This document shows positions 12,612 to 21,755 of a DNA stretch of 23,204 nucleotides, in pieces; the first letter of the stretch is position 1; the number at the start of each line of letters is the position of its first letter. The stretch lies in the IMG/VR virus record IMGVR_UViG_3300017935_000011, positions 1-23,204 of that record, one strand, 5' to 3'. The position numbers and the translations under genes are program-made. Under the pieces are notes generated by a model. It was not told where the DNA came from, did not search any database, and worked only from the letters and a program-made list of their open reading frames with translations. Source of the stretch: a virus.

Positions 12612-13598
12612 ATGACCTACACGAATTTCCTCAATGGCGTGGCATCCTTCGGGGTGCCAATGGTCAACGGCGTCTGGACGAACGGGAACGCCTGGTTTGC
12701 GCAGCCTGGCTCTGGAACTATTGGCAGCGACGGGAACACGGCCACTAGCGCAAATACGCCATGCGCCACGGTGTCCAACGCGCTCAGTCTGGCGGCAGCC
12801 GGGAACAACGACTGCATCTACCTGATTGGATCGTCGGATACCGCCTCGCAAACGTCCGACTATTACGGCTCGACACTGACGTGGAATAAAGACTTCACGC
12901 ACCTTGTCGGCATCAACGCGGGGCCGCGCAATTCGCAGCGCTCGCGCATTTCCACTCTTTCAACAGCGAACGGCGCGAACCTCGCTCCGCTCTTCTCCCT
13001 CACCGCCAACGATTGCCATTTCGAGAACATCGAGTTCTTCGCTGCGGCGCCGGGAAGCAATCCAACGCAGGCGCTTGGCTGTATGTTGATATCTGGCGAG
13101 CGCAACGTCTTCAAGAATTGCCAGATATCAGGCGTAGGCACGGCTTCGATGGATGCTGCTGGACAGTATTCCCTAAAAGTGACCGGCCAGGAAAATTACT
13201 TCGAGGACTGCCAAATCGGCCTCGATACGATCACGCGCTCTTCCGCAACTTACGAGATGTATATGAGCGGTGGCGCCGTGCGCAATCTCTTCCGCCGCTG
13301 CCGGATCGTTACCTCGGCCGGCGCCAACACGATGACGTTCCTTACCGTTCCAACGAATGGTATCGACCGCTGGAACATGTTCGAAGATTGCATCTTCATC
13401 AACGTTCCGGCCGGTGGCGTTGCCGGTGCAACCCCGCTGACGCAGGGATTCAGCATTACGGGAGGCGGCTCGCCCGATGGCTGCATTCTTCTCAAAGACT
13501 GCAAATTCGTTGGCATGGCCGCGAGCGAAAGCTCCGCAAGCAGCCGTCTCTACTACTATGCCAATGGCACCGGCAAAATGGTTGATACCGCGTTCTAA
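12612..13598 (+). CDS. Predicted right-handed beta-helix virion protein
   Basis: A 328-residue protein that looks like a pectate-lyase-type parallel beta-helix. Successive rungs end in N-x-F-x-x-C: ERNVFKNC, QENYFEDC, VRNLFRRC and RWNMFEDC place Cys at exactly 170, 200, 230 and 260, each followed by a hydrophobic x-I/F strand. Earlier (CHFENIEF, C135) and later (LLKDCKF, C297) copies extend the series. The N-terminal part (about 50-72) is the usual capping segment ATVSNALSLAAAGNNDCIYLI. No catalytic site is recognised. It lies between the capsid gene and small virion genes, so a head fibre or decoration is more likely than a tailspike; that is inference. Confidence 0.75.
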   Translation: MTYTNFLNGVASFGVPMVNGVWTNGNAWFAQPGSGTIGSDGNTATSANTPCATVSNALSLAAAGNNDCIYLIGSSDTASQTSDYYGSTLTWNKDFTHLVGINAGPRNSQRSRISTLSTANGANLAPLFSLTANDCHFENIEFFAAAPGSNPTQALGCMLISGERNVFKNCQISGVGTASMDAAGQYSLKVTGQENYFEDCQIGLDTITRSSATYEMYMSGGAVRNLFRRCRIVTSAGANTMTFLTVPTNGIDRWNMFEDCIFINVPAGGVAGATPLTQGFSITGGGSPDGCILLKDCKFVGMAASESSASSRLYYYANGTGKMVDTAF

Positions 13599-15196: not shown

Positions 15197-15883
15197 ATGA
15201 CCACAACCGGAACATGGAACTGGAACCCGGACGCCGGCTCCATCGTTCTGGCCGCGTTCGGAAGGCTGCAGATTCGCAGGGCCGAGTTGACAACTCAGCA
15301 CCTGGAAGATGCGGCCTTCGAGTCGAATGCGTTGATGGTCGACATCTCGAACCGCAACCCCGAGCGCTGGTTGATGGAGTTACAGTCCATTCCGCTCACC
15401 AGCTCTGCCACCTATACCCTTCAGCAGCGTACAATCGGCGTGACAACGGCGGTCATCGCCACACCGGGGCTGTATGACCGTGCCATGGGACCTATGGCCG
15501 CGGCCGATTATACCGTGATCCCCCAGAAGACCATTGCAGCCCCACCCACGGCCTTCTGGTTCTACCTCGGCATTCCACCGACGATCACGCTTTGGCCTGT
15601 GCCTGACACTGCGACGATAGCCGCAGGGGCAACTCTCAATCTCATGACGTGGCGGCAAACGCAGGATGTGGACCTGACGAACGGGCAATCGGTGGATTGC
15701 CCCTATCGCTTTCTGGACGCCTTCGCGACAGGCCTTGCGGCTCGGCTCGCCGAATACTATCGGCCCGAAAAGGAAGACAAGCTCAACACGCGATACGAGC
15801 AGCGCATGGCTAGAGCGATCAAGCGCGACCAAGAGAACGTCAACATCACCATCGCGCCAACGTTTCAGGGGTATTATCAGTAA
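15197..15883 (+). CDS. Adaptor / head completion protein (P22 gp4-type candidate)
   Basis: A 228-residue protein. The helical start (SIVLAAFGRLQIRRAELTTQHLEDAAFESNALM as a pattern) is followed by a beta-rich middle with GIPPTITLWPVPD (about 135-147). A helical end follows (YRFLDAFATGLAARLAEYY, then a charged helix). That order of helices, P-P-D strand and helices is typical of phage adaptor proteins that bind below the portal and close the filled head. ATG 15197 follows AAGG. A second protein of this general kind lies at 19017, so the assignment of which sits at the portal is uncertain. Confidence 0.65.
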   Translation: MTTTGTWNWNPDAGSIVLAAFGRLQIRRAELTTQHLEDAAFESNALMVDISNRNPERWLMELQSIPLTSSATYTLQQRTIGVTTAVIATPGLYDRAMGPMAAADYTVIPQKTIAAPPTAFWFYLGIPPTITLWPVPDTATIAAGATLNLMTWRQTQDVDLTNGQSVDCPYRFLDAFATGLAARLAEYYRPEKEDKLNTRYEQRMARAIKRDQENVNITIAPTFQGYYQ

Positions 15884-16230
15884 TGGCCTGGCGTCCACAT
15901 GACCGGGCCGAAGTTGACGCGGATAACCCTCGCGCATGGGCTCGCTGTGACCGGTGTTATTGCTTGACGAACCACTATAAGCTGCGCTGGCAATTCCGCT
16001 TCGCCGGGCCGCGCCTCATTAACACGAATCTGCTTGTGTGCGAAAATTGCTTGGACATTCCGAACCCGCAAGAACGCACCATCGTCATCCCTCCGGACCC
16101 GGTACCGATCAAGAACGCGCGTCCATCCGATACCTCCGTTGAAACGGACTATCTATCCACGGACAACGATTTCTATATCGAAGACGATACTGGAGACAAT
16201 TTCGTTATAGGTGGAGAAAATCCGCAATGA
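15883..16230 (+). CDS. Conserved phage zinc-ribbon protein
   Basis: A 115-residue product starting by TAATG overlap. The first half has RCDRCY (C22, C25) and VCENCL (C53, C56), two C-x2-C knuckles about 28 residues apart, with a conserved-looking strand LRWQFRFAGPRL between. The segment IVIPPDPVPIKNARP follows, and the end is acidic and likely disordered. I have seen this layout in phage structural clusters, where it may be a small virion or connector component. The zinc ribbon is sure; the role is not. It overlaps the next gene by ATGA. Confidence 0.75.
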   Translation: MAWRPHDRAEVDADNPRAWARCDRCYCLTNHYKLRWQFRFAGPRLINTNLLVCENCLDIPNPQERTIVIPPDPVPIKNARPSDTSVETDYLSTDNDFYIEDDTGDNFVIGGENPQ

Positions 16231-17514: not shown

Positions 17515-19020
17515 GTGACCGTCACCAATTACATCACAGCAACCGGGGGGGGTAGCTTCGTCGTTCCGGATGAAGTGTATTCTATTACGCTTCAAGGCAT
17601 CGGTGGCGGGGCGGCAGCAAGCGGAGTATCCTATGCGGGAGGGGGTGGAGCTTTTGCTGCTAGCACCATTTCCGTGGTTCCGGGGCAAACCGTATATTAT
17701 TTCGTGGCGCTCCCGTCATCTTCCCAGCAGACCTGGGCACAGCTTGGCGTAAATGCAGCCCCCGCTCTCTCCTCCCTGGGTATTCTCGCCAATGGCGGGT
17801 CTTCCTCCACAGGCGGACAATCCGCAGGCTGTGTTGGGACTACGGTTTATTCGGGCGGCAACGGGGGTGCAGGGACAGGCTCCCCAGGTGGAGGTGGCTC
17901 GGCTGGCCCCAATGGCGCCGGTAAAAACGGCGGGACAGGCGGCGGGTCCGATGGCGGCGGAGGTGGTGGCGGTTCGAACGGTGGATCGTCTACAGCTGGC
18001 GCCAATGCTACCGGATCGTCAGGCGCCAACGGTGGCCAGGGCACTGCAGGGACCGGTAGCGGGGCCGGAAGTTCAAGCGGAAACGGTCCGAACGGAACAC
18101 TAGGAGGTGGCGGCGGCGGCGGCGATCTGACCGCCGGCGGCAATGGCGGCAACGGTGGCTCCGATACAAGCCTAGGTTCGACCTATGGAGCAGGCGGCGG
18201 CGGTGGCGGCTGCTATGGAAATAGCGGGACGCCCGGTAATGGCGGAACGTATGGCGGCGGCGGCGGCGCGGGCAACACTGTGACAGGGGGGGCAGGGGGG
18301 CAAGGTATCCTCGTATGGTCATACACTGCCACGATCCTCCCAGATACGTGGTTCGAAGCTTTCAGTGAACCGGCGCAATTCAAGCTATCGCCCCGTCTCA
18401 GTGCCGCCATATTAGCGTCAGGGCCGCAAGCTCCGGTTCTGCCGCCGAGTATCTGCGCCGGTCCTAATGTCATTGCGCCGGGGTGGTGGGTTCCCTTCAG
18501 CGAACCGGCGCAATTCAAGATATCGAGACGGCTTAGCGCGGCCGCCCTAGTGGCGAGCGGACCTCAAGTTCTGGGACTCCCCGCGAATATCGTTGCCGGC
18601 GCGAACGTCATGGGCGCCGGCTGGATACCGCCTCTCAGCGAGCCGAATCAATTCAGGATATCTCCCCGGCTTAGCGCGGCACTCCTCGCCCGTGCGTCAG
18701 GACCGATGGCGCCGGTTCTAACGCTCAGCCAACTCCCGGAAGCCGATAAAATTTTTGCGGGTTGGTTCGTTGCGTTAAGCGAGCCCAATCAATTCCGGAA
18801 AGCGCGCGACCTGATTTCAGCGGTCAGAGCGTCTGGACCGCAAGCTCCTATCCTCGATATCCTACAGGAGATAGGATACCTTCCGGACTGGTTCATGGCA
18901 CTGAGCGAGCCGGTACGTTACCCTCCGGCCCTATCGCGCGCGTTGCAGGCCTCCACAGCCGGTCCGATCTTTTATCCCTATCCACCCGTGTTTGCTTGTA
19001 GGGGATATATATTTACATGA
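17515..19020 (+). CDS. Glycine-rich protein with five SEP repeats, possible adhesin
   Basis: A 501-residue product starting at GTG 17515 (AAGGA about 12 bases upstream; no better start). Residues 1-70 are beta-rich (SFVVPDEVYSITLQ, VVPGQTVYYFVALP). About 104-268 is extremely Gly-rich with GG, GGN, GGS and GGGG runs, the composition of polyglycine-II type adhesin tips. From 279 come five tandem repeats beginning at W279, W324, W370, W417 and W459 (spacings 45, 46, 47, 42). Their core is W-x3-(F/L)-SEP-x-QF(K/R), then RLSAA, then ASGPQAPVL; the last repeat is degenerate. A tail-fibre or adhesin role is likely but unproved. It ends in an ATGA overlap with the next gene. Confidence 0.7.
   Translation: MTVTNYITATGGGSFVVPDEVYSITLQGIGGGAAASGVSYAGGGGAFAASTISVVPGQTVYYFVALPSSSQQTWAQLGVNAAPALSSLGILANGGSSSTGGQSAGCVGTTVYSGGNGGAGTGSPGGGGSAGPNGAGKNGGTGGGSDGGGGGGGSNGGSSTAGANATGSSGANGGQGTAGTGSGAGSSSGNGPNGTLGGGGGGGDLTAGGNGGNGGSDTSLGSTYGAGGGGGGCYGNSGTPGNGGTYGGGGGAGNTVTGGAGGQGILVWSYTATILPDTWFEAFSEPAQFKLSPRLSAAILASGPQAPVLPPSICAGPNVIAPGWWVPFSEPAQFKISRRLSAAALVASGPQVLGLPANIVAGANVMGAGWIPPLSEPNQFRISPRLSAALLARASGPMAPVLTLSQLPEADKIFAGWFVALSEPNQFRKARDLISAVRASGPQAPILDILQEIGYLPDWFMALSEPVRYPPALSRALQASTAGPIFYPYPPVFACRGYIFT
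17857..18312 (+). repeat. Glycine-coding low-complexity DNA
   Basis: A G-rich tract made of GGC/GGT/GGG/GGA codons in irregular short arrays encodes the Gly-rich block of the 17515 protein. Several GGCGGCGG runs (for example around 18108-18123 and 18192-18208) are short enough to slip in replication, so length variants are expected. The antisense strand carries a proline-rich open frame, which is only a consequence of this composition. Confidence 0.75.
18340..18948 (+). repeat. Five tandem SEP repeats (DNA level)
   Basis: The repeat cores are similar in the DNA. An 18-base string, GAACCGGCGCAATTCAAG, is shared by the first two copies (near 18367 and 18503). Copies three and four share CAATTC with third-base changes. 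This supports recent local duplication rather than convergence. Repeat starts by the Trp codon are 18349, 18484, 18622, 18763 and 18889. Confidence 0.75.
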
Positions 19021-19709
19021 GCTACACCTACAGCACGCTTCTAACGGCAGTTGCTAACGCGCTCACGGTCGATCCGGGGGATGCGGATTTCGTGGCGCTC
19101 CTTCCCACGATCCTGGATGACGCCGAGCAGCGTTGTTACCGCGAGCTGGACCTCCTGACGGCCAACGTCACCGTTTCGCAAACACTCATCCCCAACACCC
19201 GCATCAACCCGATTCCTACGACCTCGGGACACATGCTTGTGCTCGACGCTATCAACGTCTTCTCGACAGCCGGTGCGCGCTTCTCGCCGCCCGTGAAGAT
19301 GGTTAGCCGTGATGTGGTGGATTTCCTGTGGCCGAACGAGTCCGCGCCATCCGCCGCATCCTTTCCCGTCCTCGCTGCGCGCATCGACGACCTAAACGTC
19401 ATGTTCGGCCCGGCGCCCGGCTCGCCATGGGGGGCTGAGTTCATCGGCACAGTCCGGCCGGCGCCGCTGTCGGCCTCGAACACCTCGACGTTCTTGACGA
19501 ACTACCTCAGCGACTTGTTCTTCAAGTGCATCATGGCGGACGCGAACGGGGTGCTGCTCAAGAACTATGGCGCGCAATCGAGCGATCCGCAGCAAGCCGT
19601 TTCCTGGGAAGCCGCCTACCAGGCCGCCATGGCGTCAGCCAAGACCGAAGAGCTGCGCAAGATGTACATCAGCGCGAATTCCCCGCTTCCTGCATCCGCA
19701 AAGGCGTAA
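19017..19709 (+). CDS. Adaptor-like tail protein (second candidate)
   Basis: A 230-residue product. The helical start YSTLLTAVANALTVDPGDADFVALLPTIL (pattern) and DDAEQRCYREL, the middle beta segment with PVLAARIDDLNVMFGPAPGS, and the helical end (SDLFFKCIMADANGVL, then an amphipathic helix) match the adaptor proteins found between portal and gp10-like protein in podoviruses (T7 gp11/P22 gp4 style). It lies directly before the gp10-like gene, the usual order. ATGA overlap with the preceding gene. It and the protein at 15197 share this general layout; which is gp4-like cannot be decided by eye. Confidence 0.75.
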   Translation: MSYTYSTLLTAVANALTVDPGDADFVALLPTILDDAEQRCYRELDLLTANVTVSQTLIPNTRINPIPTTSGHMLVLDAINVFSTAGARFSPPVKMVSRDVVDFLWPNESAPSAASFPVLAARIDDLNVMFGPAPGSPWGAEFIGTVRPAPLSASNTSTFLTNYLSDLFFKCIMADANGVLLKNYGAQSSDPQQAVSWEAAYQAAMASAKTEELRKMYISANSPLPASAKA

Positions 19710-19712
19710 GCC

Positions 19713-21755
19713 ATGACCCGGTCGCCTATCAATCTCGTGCCAGGCCTCAACGTCGAAGTGACGGAGGCCGCGCTGCGCTCGGGCTATGCCGCGATGGATT
19801 TCGGGCGCTGGAAGGCCGGTCTCTTTGAGAAGATGGGGGGATGGGTAAAATACTTCTCGGGCGTTCTCGACGGCATTCCACGCGCTAGCCATGCCTGGGA
19901 AGATTTGGCGGACAACCAGCGCTATGTGGTAGCTACCACGACCGAACTTGCCGATATCACCAACGGCACTTTGACGAATGTCATTCCGCAAACGGTGACA
20001 ACCAATCCAGCCCCGAACTTCACAACGACGGCCGGATCGTCCAGCGTTACGGTGGCCGACTCGGGGGTATCGACAATCACGCCAAGCGATTCGGTGTTCT
20101 TCGGAACGCCGATTTCCGTCGATGGCATCATTCTATCCGGCCTCTATCCCGTCACGGCGTATCTTGGCGCGGGGGCCTACTCGATTGACGCCGCGATGAA
20201 TGGGCTCGCGGGGGTGAGTGCGGGTGGTGCCGTCCCGGCCTTCACCACGGTTTCCGGCAGCCCAGACGTGACGATCACGCTCGACAATCATGGGCTAGGG
20301 GTCGGTGACGATATTGTGCTGCCAATCGCAACCGCGGTCGGCGGTATCTCCATTGTGGGGCGCTACGTCGCTACGTCGATCACTGACGCGAATAACTTCG
20401 TCGTGGTAGCTGCGCAAACGGCATCGTCGAGCGCCGGTCCAACGTCCATGAATTCCGCAAATGCGCAGCTCACCTATTACCTGACGGCCAATCCGACCCC
20501 GGCAGGGGGAGCCTACGGCGCGGGCAACTATGGCGCTGGCGCCTATGGCACGGGCCAGACTGCGGTGGGGCAAACCGGGACGCCGATAACGGCCATAGAC
20601 TGGACGGTGGATAGCTGGGGTGAGTTGCTCATGGCCTGCCCGCAAGGGGGAGCGCTCTATTTCTGGGGACCCGCGAGCGGCTACGGAAGCGCGCAAGTCA
20701 TCGGCACAGCTCCGCCTTTCAACGCCGGCGCCTTCATGTCGAACTCGCAGCAGATGATGGTCTGCTTCGGCTCGACCGCAGATGCCGCTATTGGTGTTTA
20801 TCAAGACCCGCTCCTTATCCGCTGGTGTGACGTTGGCGATTTCACGACATGGATCGGGACCATCAATAACCAAGCTGGCCAATATCGCCTCAGCCAAGGA
20901 TCGCGCATCGTCGGGGGTGGCTCAACGCCAACCATGGATCTGATCTGGACCGATCAAGATTTGTGGTCAATGTCCTACATCGGTTCTGAGTTCGTGTTTG
21001 GTTTTACGATCATAGGTAAGAATTGCGGGTTGATAGCAAAGCATGCCTGGGGAGCTATCGGCGGAAACGTCTATTGGATGACGCCCTCGGGACTGTTCTC
21101 GCTCTCAGGTGGCATCGTCTCCAAGATGCCATGCCCGGCCTGGGACGCGCTTTATCAGGATCTTGACCTGCCTAATGCGTGGCAATGCCACGTCGGCACG
21201 AATACGCTATTCGGAGAGGTCGATTTCTTCTTTCCGTCCAAATCTGGCGGCTACGGCTACTGCGATAAGAAGCTGACGTTGAATGTGGATGAGGGGCTGT
21301 GGTCGCTCTCTTCGGTCCAGCGCAACACATGGATTGATGTGTCTGGCATAAACAGCCCTATCGCGGCGAATAATTCCGGCATCGTTTACCAGCACGAGGT
21401 TGGATTTGACGCAGATACGGCTCCCATGAACCCTCATTTTGAAACGGGCTGGATAAGAATAAATTCCGGCGAGGACTTGGCATTTATCGACCGCATCATG
21501 CCTGACTTCAAATGGGGAGAGTACAACGGAAGCCAGAATGCGAATATACTTGTTACAGTCAGCGCCATCAAATGGCTGAACCAAGCAAACTCACCCGTCG
21601 TATATGGTCCCTTTACGATGAACGAGGCCCTGCGCTTCATAAGCAAGAGGATGCGCGGAAGGTACATAAAGTTTAGATTTGAAAGCCAGGACACCGGCTC
21701 ATTCTGGCGCGCCGGGAATACGGAGCTTCGCTGGCAAGCCGATGGGAAAAACTGA
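19713..21755 (+). CDS. P22 gp10-like tail / DNA stabilisation protein
   Basis: A 680-residue protein. The start SPINLVPGLNVE and the mid-section resemble P22 gp10 and T7 gp12-type tail proteins. Recurring turns such as DWTVDSWGELLMACPQGGALYFW and LIWTDQDLWSMSY suggest a propeller-like repeated fold. The end RYIKFRFESQDTGSFWRAG is a familiar block. Such proteins sit under the adaptor and keep packaged DNA in. Residues about 80-280 are Thr/Gly-rich and probably an inserted beta domain. The last 300 bases (about 21420-21755) use AGG, AGA and ATA codons, unlike the rest, suggesting a recombined end. ATG 19713 follows the previous stop by three bases; the stop overlaps the next gene by TGATG. Confidence 0.8.
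   Translation: MTRSPINLVPGLNVEVTEAALRSGYAAMDFGRWKAGLFEKMGGWVKYFSGVLDGIPRASHAWEDLADNQRYVVATTTELADITNGTLTNVIPQTVTTNPAPNFTTTAGSSSVTVADSGVSTITPSDSVFFGTPISVDGIILSGLYPVTAYLGAGAYSIDAAMNGLAGVSAGGAVPAFTTVSGSPDVTITLDNHGLGVGDDIVLPIATAVGGISIVGRYVATSITDANNFVVVAAQTASSSAGPTSMNSANAQLTYYLTANPTPAGGAYGAGNYGAGAYGTGQTAVGQTGTPITAIDWTVDSWGELLMACPQGGALYFWGPASGYGSAQVIGTAPPFNAGAFMSNSQQMMVCFGSTADAAIGVYQDPLLIRWCDVGDFTTWIGTINNQAGQYRLSQGSRIVGGGSTPTMDLIWTDQDLWSMSYIGSEFVFGFTIIGKNCGLIAKHAWGAIGGNVYWMTPSGLFSLSGGIVSKMPCPAWDALYQDLDLPNAWQCHVGTNTLFGEVDFFFPSKSGGYGYCDKKLTLNVDEGLWSLSSVQRNTWIDVSGINSPIAANNSGIVYQHEVGFDADTAPMNPHFETGWIRINSGEDLAFIDRIMPDFKWGEYNGSQNANILVTVSAIKWLNQANSPVVYGPFTMNEALRFISKRMRGRYIKFRFESQDTGSFWRAGNTELRWQADGKN

Follow-up and report, generated by a model that had tools for sequence, protein, structure and literature searches.

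The open reading frame (ORF) at positions 17515–19020 of the window (the whole stretch of DNA analysed, which makes up an entire IMG/VR virus record, 23,204 bases long and itself a fragment) encodes a 501-aa protein in which a glycine-rich domain is followed by five tandem copies of a repeat, referred to here as W-SEP. On balance, this protein is probably a subunit of a virion receptor-binding adhesin, with an N-terminal binding tip and a C-terminal W-SEP arm or tether. The TNF-like and glycine-rich N-terminal domain would act as the binding tip, and the five repeats would form an attachment arm of variable length by which the tip is joined to the particle, the likely site being the short tail close to the adaptor and nozzle. 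In most relatives, these two parts lie in adjacent ORFs, with the tip exchanged for lectin-like or other domains, while here the two are fused. The binding proteins of phages set their host range. The relevant features of the ORF are as follows.

17515–19020, plus strand: putative glycine-rich adhesin with W-SEP repeats in the same ORF (501 aa, starting at GTG)
17515–18330, plus strand: predicted receptor-recognition-type domain combining a TNF-like beta-sandwich with a glycine-rich lattice (AlphaFold2 and Foldseek)
18349–18483, plus strand: W-SEP repeat 1 (W279)
18484–18621, plus strand: W-SEP repeat 2 (W324)
18622–18762, plus strand: W-SEP repeat 3 (W370)
18763–18888, plus strand: W-SEP repeat 4 (W417)
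18889–19017, plus strand: W-SEP repeat 5 (W459) and C-terminal end (best family match, 29.4 bits)

The GTG start lines up with the methionine start of a fused homologue, L013. The two parts of the protein differ markedly in composition, with glycine accounting for 48% of residues 95–264 vs 6% of the repeat region. The five repeats are W-x3-[LF]-S-E-P units of 42–47 aa, and the W, S-E-P, L, A and G-P residues are common to all five. The original prediction had placed five tandem repeats at W279, 324, 370, 417 and 459, and the ORF, its coordinates and these starting points all proved exact. It had also claimed that the repetition extends to the DNA, and indeed a 61-nt core is present in three of the units, at 18348, 18483 and 18621 (spacing 135 and 138), the second and third copies sharing 75 and 66% identity with the first. 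Tandem Repeats Finder, at a score of 50, did not report the array, which indicates that it has diverged at the DNA level.

No relatives were found when the window’s own repeats were used as the query, whether in tblastn searches of named phages, in locus searches with the repeat region or an alignment of the five units, or with two window-specific DNA patterns. The lead into the family was instead a DNA pattern encoding the consensus W-[FY]-x2-L-S-E-P-V-R-x-K, which matched 20 IMG/VR stretches; a WSEPVR variant matched 43. The W-SEP repeat is present in about 55 IMG/VR loci, with 2–21 tandem units per protein and a unit spacing most often of 34–39 aa, shorter than that of the window units. As these loci were picked by motif, the window was tested separately with a profile lacking window sequences. 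That profile matched the window ORF with an E value of 2.7e–17 over five units, and the repeat region scored 71.2 bits, whereas none of 1000 shuffled versions exceeded 13.2 bits. The window protein is thus a member of the family as defined by tandem W-x3-[LFW]-S-[ED]-P units recognized by a window-free profile.

The original prediction could name no domain for the repeat, and this held in four libraries: no family or relative of the W-SEP repeat was found in Pfam, PHROGs, NCBIfam or the PDB, the last of which also held no structural relative of the repeats, and no family was found for the 501-aa protein in Pfam, PHROGs or NCBIfam. PHROGs matches were obtained for a few repeat proteins; they contained no significant stretch, differed between proteins and were taken to be repeat artefacts. 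No W-SEP repeat array was observed in named phages, plasmids or GTDB genomes. Pattern searches gave 0 and 3 matches in GTDB, of which only one lay within an open frame carrying the motif, in a single copy; since at most one in-frame, unrepeated motif is involved, these matches look like chance. The motif letters were also looked for in open-licence papers, with no result. The predicted fold type of the tip is already known from Pam3 gp24 (see below), and it is the W-SEP repeat and its link to exchangeable adhesins that were not found in the libraries searched.

It had been suggested that copy number may vary, and the range of 2–21 units among relatives bears this out. Variation is also seen between close relatives. 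The repeat ORFs of L040 and L057 encode 376 and 584 aa, with roughly 8 vs 11–12 units, while their adaptor-type proteins are 93–95% identical. The repeat arrays themselves are only 52% identical, i.e. they diverge faster than their neighbours. Most repeat proteins (e.g. those of L042, L046, L055, L011, L016 and L017) end in a conserved C-terminal module, AATETNxDxAxFxINVY ... ARVSIxEI, sometimes accompanied by extra short VSIxEI units; the module is absent from the window protein and from L056. Two N-terminal motifs, F-Q-Y-Q-x-K-T-x-P-V-L and M-L-G-x-G-x-I-G-Q-F-x-I-G-Q, recur in repeat proteins encoded separately from the adhesin (L018, L007, L017, L015 and L056).

The glycine-rich block had been likened to the tip domains of phage adhesins, and structure prediction agreed, the predicted fold being closest to gp24, the tail fibre of the myocyanophage Pam3. 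In the AlphaFold2 model of the window domain, the strands have pLDDT values mostly of 65–86, with a weak middle of 43–54, and the strands from E2-7 to E89-93 and E265-271 flank the glycine-rich stretch; for the corresponding domain of L013, pLDDT is mostly above 80. Both models combine a TNF-like beta-sandwich and glycine-rich loops in one domain, and both have Pam3 gp24 (PDB 7ypx) as their best fold match, with Foldseek E values of 1.7e–4 (probability 1.00) for the window and 1.9e–9 for L013. The L013 model also matched the Qa/Qb chains of the Bxb1 tail tip (PDB 9d93; E=1.6e–8) and, weakly, the glycine-rich ectodomains of ALK/LTK (E about 0.01–0.1). These are likenesses at the level of the fold, confined to the glycine-rich domain, from other hosts and contexts and from proteins that lack W-SEP repeats. 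Many phage ‘glycine-rich domain’ proteins in BFVD matched the model of the domain as well.

The alignment supplied to AlphaFold2 was put together on the assumption of homology. With the window domain alone, phmmer found no relative in the PDB, and plain BLAST with composition correction did not align the domain to its relatives; the assignment of the window domain therefore rests on the model from the assembled alignment. The profile of that alignment matched Pam3 gp24 in sequence in the PDB. Its other PDB matches (MHC chimeras, ferritin etc.) look like matches to glycine linkers. Six relatives matched the Pfam family Gly_rich_2 (PF21722) at E≤0.01 (best E=5e–11), and L013 covers nearly the whole profile yet falls below the gathering cut-off; the window protein, in contrast, gave no match at E≤1 and so lies outside the family as delimited by that cut-off.

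In Pam3 gp24 (7ypx and 7yfw), as here, a TNF-like beta-sandwich is followed by a glycine-rich domain. The N-terminal helix of gp24 docks to the baseplate, and gp24 has been compared with gp38 of phage S16 (PMC9608196). The window protein differs in several respects. It begins directly with the beta-sandwich and has no N-terminal helical docking domain; gp24 lacks repeats, whereas in the window protein the tip is N-terminal and the five W-SEP repeats are C-terminal, the reverse layout; and, unlike in Pam3, no Tfa-like chaperone was identified beside the gene. The glycine-rich lattice tip is shared with the polyglycine II tip adhesins of the S16 gp38 type, but gp38 was not among the listed fold matches, and its domain order differs, as does the TNF-like part. 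The window tip most likely resembles Pam3 gp24 at the level of the predicted fold and would work as gp24 does, minus the layout of the Pam3 protein.

For the repeats, the original prediction had looked to structure prediction for a regular fold, and in this respect it was not upheld. Mean pLDDT by blocks was about 30–57 for the window and 41–69 for L013, in monomer predictions built from about 40–57 sequences, and only short, uncertain helices were seen. The regular, confident fold of a solenoid-type repeat protein was not obtained, which counts against a rigid, monomeric, solenoid-like domain; the repeats may fold on binding or on oligomerization.

Evidence for the exchange of binding domains comes from the ORFs that precede the repeat genes. 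In most cases the adhesin has an ORF of its own immediately upstream of the repeat ORF, and it is of the glycine-rich type in about 16 loci (e.g. L056, which has the gene order of the window). The tip is fused to the repeats in the window, L008, L013 and L045, and in L011 a TIG domain is fused. The upstream ORF of L057 matched Laminin_G_3 (E=1e–9), and that of L003 gave a weak C1q-like match (E=8e–4); still other upstream ORFs could be assigned to no family. Particularly informative are L038, L040 and L057, in which the proteins of the gene designated adA (86–93% identity) and of the adaptor gene (84–95%) are highly similar. Their upstream ORFs are mutually dissimilar, being, respectively, glycine-rich, of an unrecognized type (606 aa) and Laminin_G_3. 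Dissimilar upstream ORFs beside such similar neighbours indicate that the repeat gene is retained and the domain of binding type is replaced.

The ORFs directly upstream of repeat genes often share a C-terminal tail of the form [RK]-x(2-5)-hydrophobic-[GAS]-Y. A tyrosine was found at the C-terminal end of 14 of 24 upstream ORFs, vs 1 of 171 conserved-gene controls, the rows being partly related. This tail is possibly a docking signal. The idea that the tails are degenerate W-SEP units was rejected, as they scored no better than controls. Tail-bearing upstream ORFs include the following, among others.

L014, 1200–2189
L017, 4348–5028
L018, 2966–3757
L026, 11464–12795
L030, 2599–3267
L036, 6346–7509
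L038, 8399–9607
L053, 6244–7179
L056, 4243–5214

The genes surrounding the 501-aa ORF in the window are as follows.

15197–15883, plus strand: adA, second SU10-adaptor-like gene, used as tree marker (PF24175, E=4e–7)
15883–16230, plus strand: zn, conserved gene directly 5′ of the cassette site in the window and L056
16775–17245, plus strand: g16775, which opens the cassette block and encodes a conserved protein of 156 aa
17249–17509, plus strand: zn2, second in the block, with a Cys/His-rich product (invariant residues C-x-HC ... H ... C-x2-C ... C-x2-C ... C)
19017–19709, plus strand: head–tail adaptor, SU10 type (PF24175, E=4e–19)
19713–21755, plus strand: tail nozzle or ‘stabilization protein’ type virion protein (phrog_3287, E=1e–56; named phage homologues)

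The protein encoded by g16775 has no Pfam or PDB relative, and that of zn2 is a probable zinc-binding protein, judging from its invariant residues. The two SU10-adaptor-like genes lie in one virion module and both are kept in relatives. As originally stated, the adhesin gene stands before the tail genes, directly 5′ of the adaptor and nozzle genes. This placement is not the usual one. Relatives usually have the genes in the order mcp (the major capsid protein gene), g16775, zn2, (adhesin), rep (the repeat gene), adA, zn, adaptor and nozzle, whereas the window and L056 carry the g16775, zn2, (adhesin), rep block between zn and the adaptor gene instead. The window has the same block order as L056 and is thus counted among the carriers of the block. 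The components of the block, g16775, zn2 and the repeat, co-occur in 19 loci, and every locus with g16775 (19 of 19) has repeats.

None of the 80 loci gathered by similarity of the capsid protein (MCP) contained g16775, zn2 or the repeat; 10 of these 80 loci also include the adaptor and nozzle genes. The window’s nearest relative, L022/L063 (76% identity in the capsid protein, 53% in the nozzle), lacks the block, and its adA, zn, adaptor and nozzle genes are contiguous. In the adA tree, the window falls among four rows without the block (SH-aLRT 99), and L056 stands beside other such rows, apart from the two clades of repeat carriers. The window and L056 are about 56–57% identical in g16775 but only 31–37% in adA, adaptor and nozzle. 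The block appears to be mobile, given its absence from the nearest relative and from the 80 capsid-collected loci. The simplest reading of these comparisons is that it moved as a unit between lineages, with independent loss as a possible alternative.

The location of the block also bears on where the protein would be attached, and the main rival to a tail-borne adhesin, which we regard as possible but rather unlikely, is a head fibre or capsid decoration. The array would then bind repeated sites on the capsid and display the glycine-rich or lectin domain for loose adhesion to polysaccharide or debris, with no specific tail-borne receptor binding. The main clades carry the block between mcp and adA, closer to the capsid gene than to the nozzle gene, so that the head could be the attachment site; the upstream partners include glycan-binding-like folds (Laminin_G_3 and C1q-like), and several short motifs would suit many equivalent capsid sites. 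In the window and L056, however, the block directly precedes the adaptor and nozzle genes, and the nearest solved folds belong to tail proteins, one from a fibre and the other from a tip. A receptor-binding adhesin, probably of the short tail, remains the preferred reading, although the lack of a confident fold for the repeats and the reversed orientation of tip and arm relative to Pam3 gp24 both count against it. A host-contact role, as originally suggested, is plausible but supported indirectly, the homologues being linked to virion genes and to lectin-like domains.

The low monomer pLDDT of units with so many conserved W, L and P residues would also be expected if the repeats were an assembly or oligomerization device (a trimer shaft, or a part acting like an intramolecular chaperone) that folds only in the oligomer, giving a rigid shaft whose length can vary. 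Trimers are typical of phage fibres, and the number of units varies, as expected for a shaft. We consider this explanation improbable: no coiled-coil or beta-spiral signature was noticed, and a short conserved motif, W-x3-L-S-E-P-V-R, with variable linkers is more like a set of linear motifs. It is very improbable that the gene is a mobile passenger without a structural role, or that the ORF is translated low-complexity DNA. The cassette is, to be sure, dispensable, being absent from L022/L063 and the 80 MCP-anchored loci, but frame and motif are conserved at the protein level in about 55 loci, the gene is found within or close to the block of virion genes in every locus whose flank is long enough, and the fold matches virion tips.

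More tentatively, the data could be accommodated by a broader proposal, in which the W-SEP array is a new short-motif carrier of exchangeable adhesins. Whole binding domains would be swapped through the upstream ORF, which is sometimes fused to the array, and the block would move as a unit between lineages and insertion sites; the tyrosine-ending tail of the tip may serve in docking and would be needless in fused forms. What persists in this family is an undescribed repeat protein, while the adjoining binding domain, sometimes part of the same polypeptide, changes between close relatives. The exchangeable neighbours of the repeat suggest a plug-in system that alters the adhesion target of the phage. 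Should the repeat prove to be the shared attachment element, this would explain how unrelated binding domains are exchanged among these environmental phages without redesign of the tail, and W-x3-[LW]-SEPVR would provide a simple sequence tag for adhesins in unannotated phage genomes.

Two further ORFs of the window were noted. That at 12612–13598, right after the capsid gene, encodes a protein resembling a right-handed beta-helix (weak match to PF13229) that is poorly conserved in relatives. That at 1325–1969, near the start of the record, encodes a protein with a G-H-S-L-G motif, which is typical of serine lipases/esterases.
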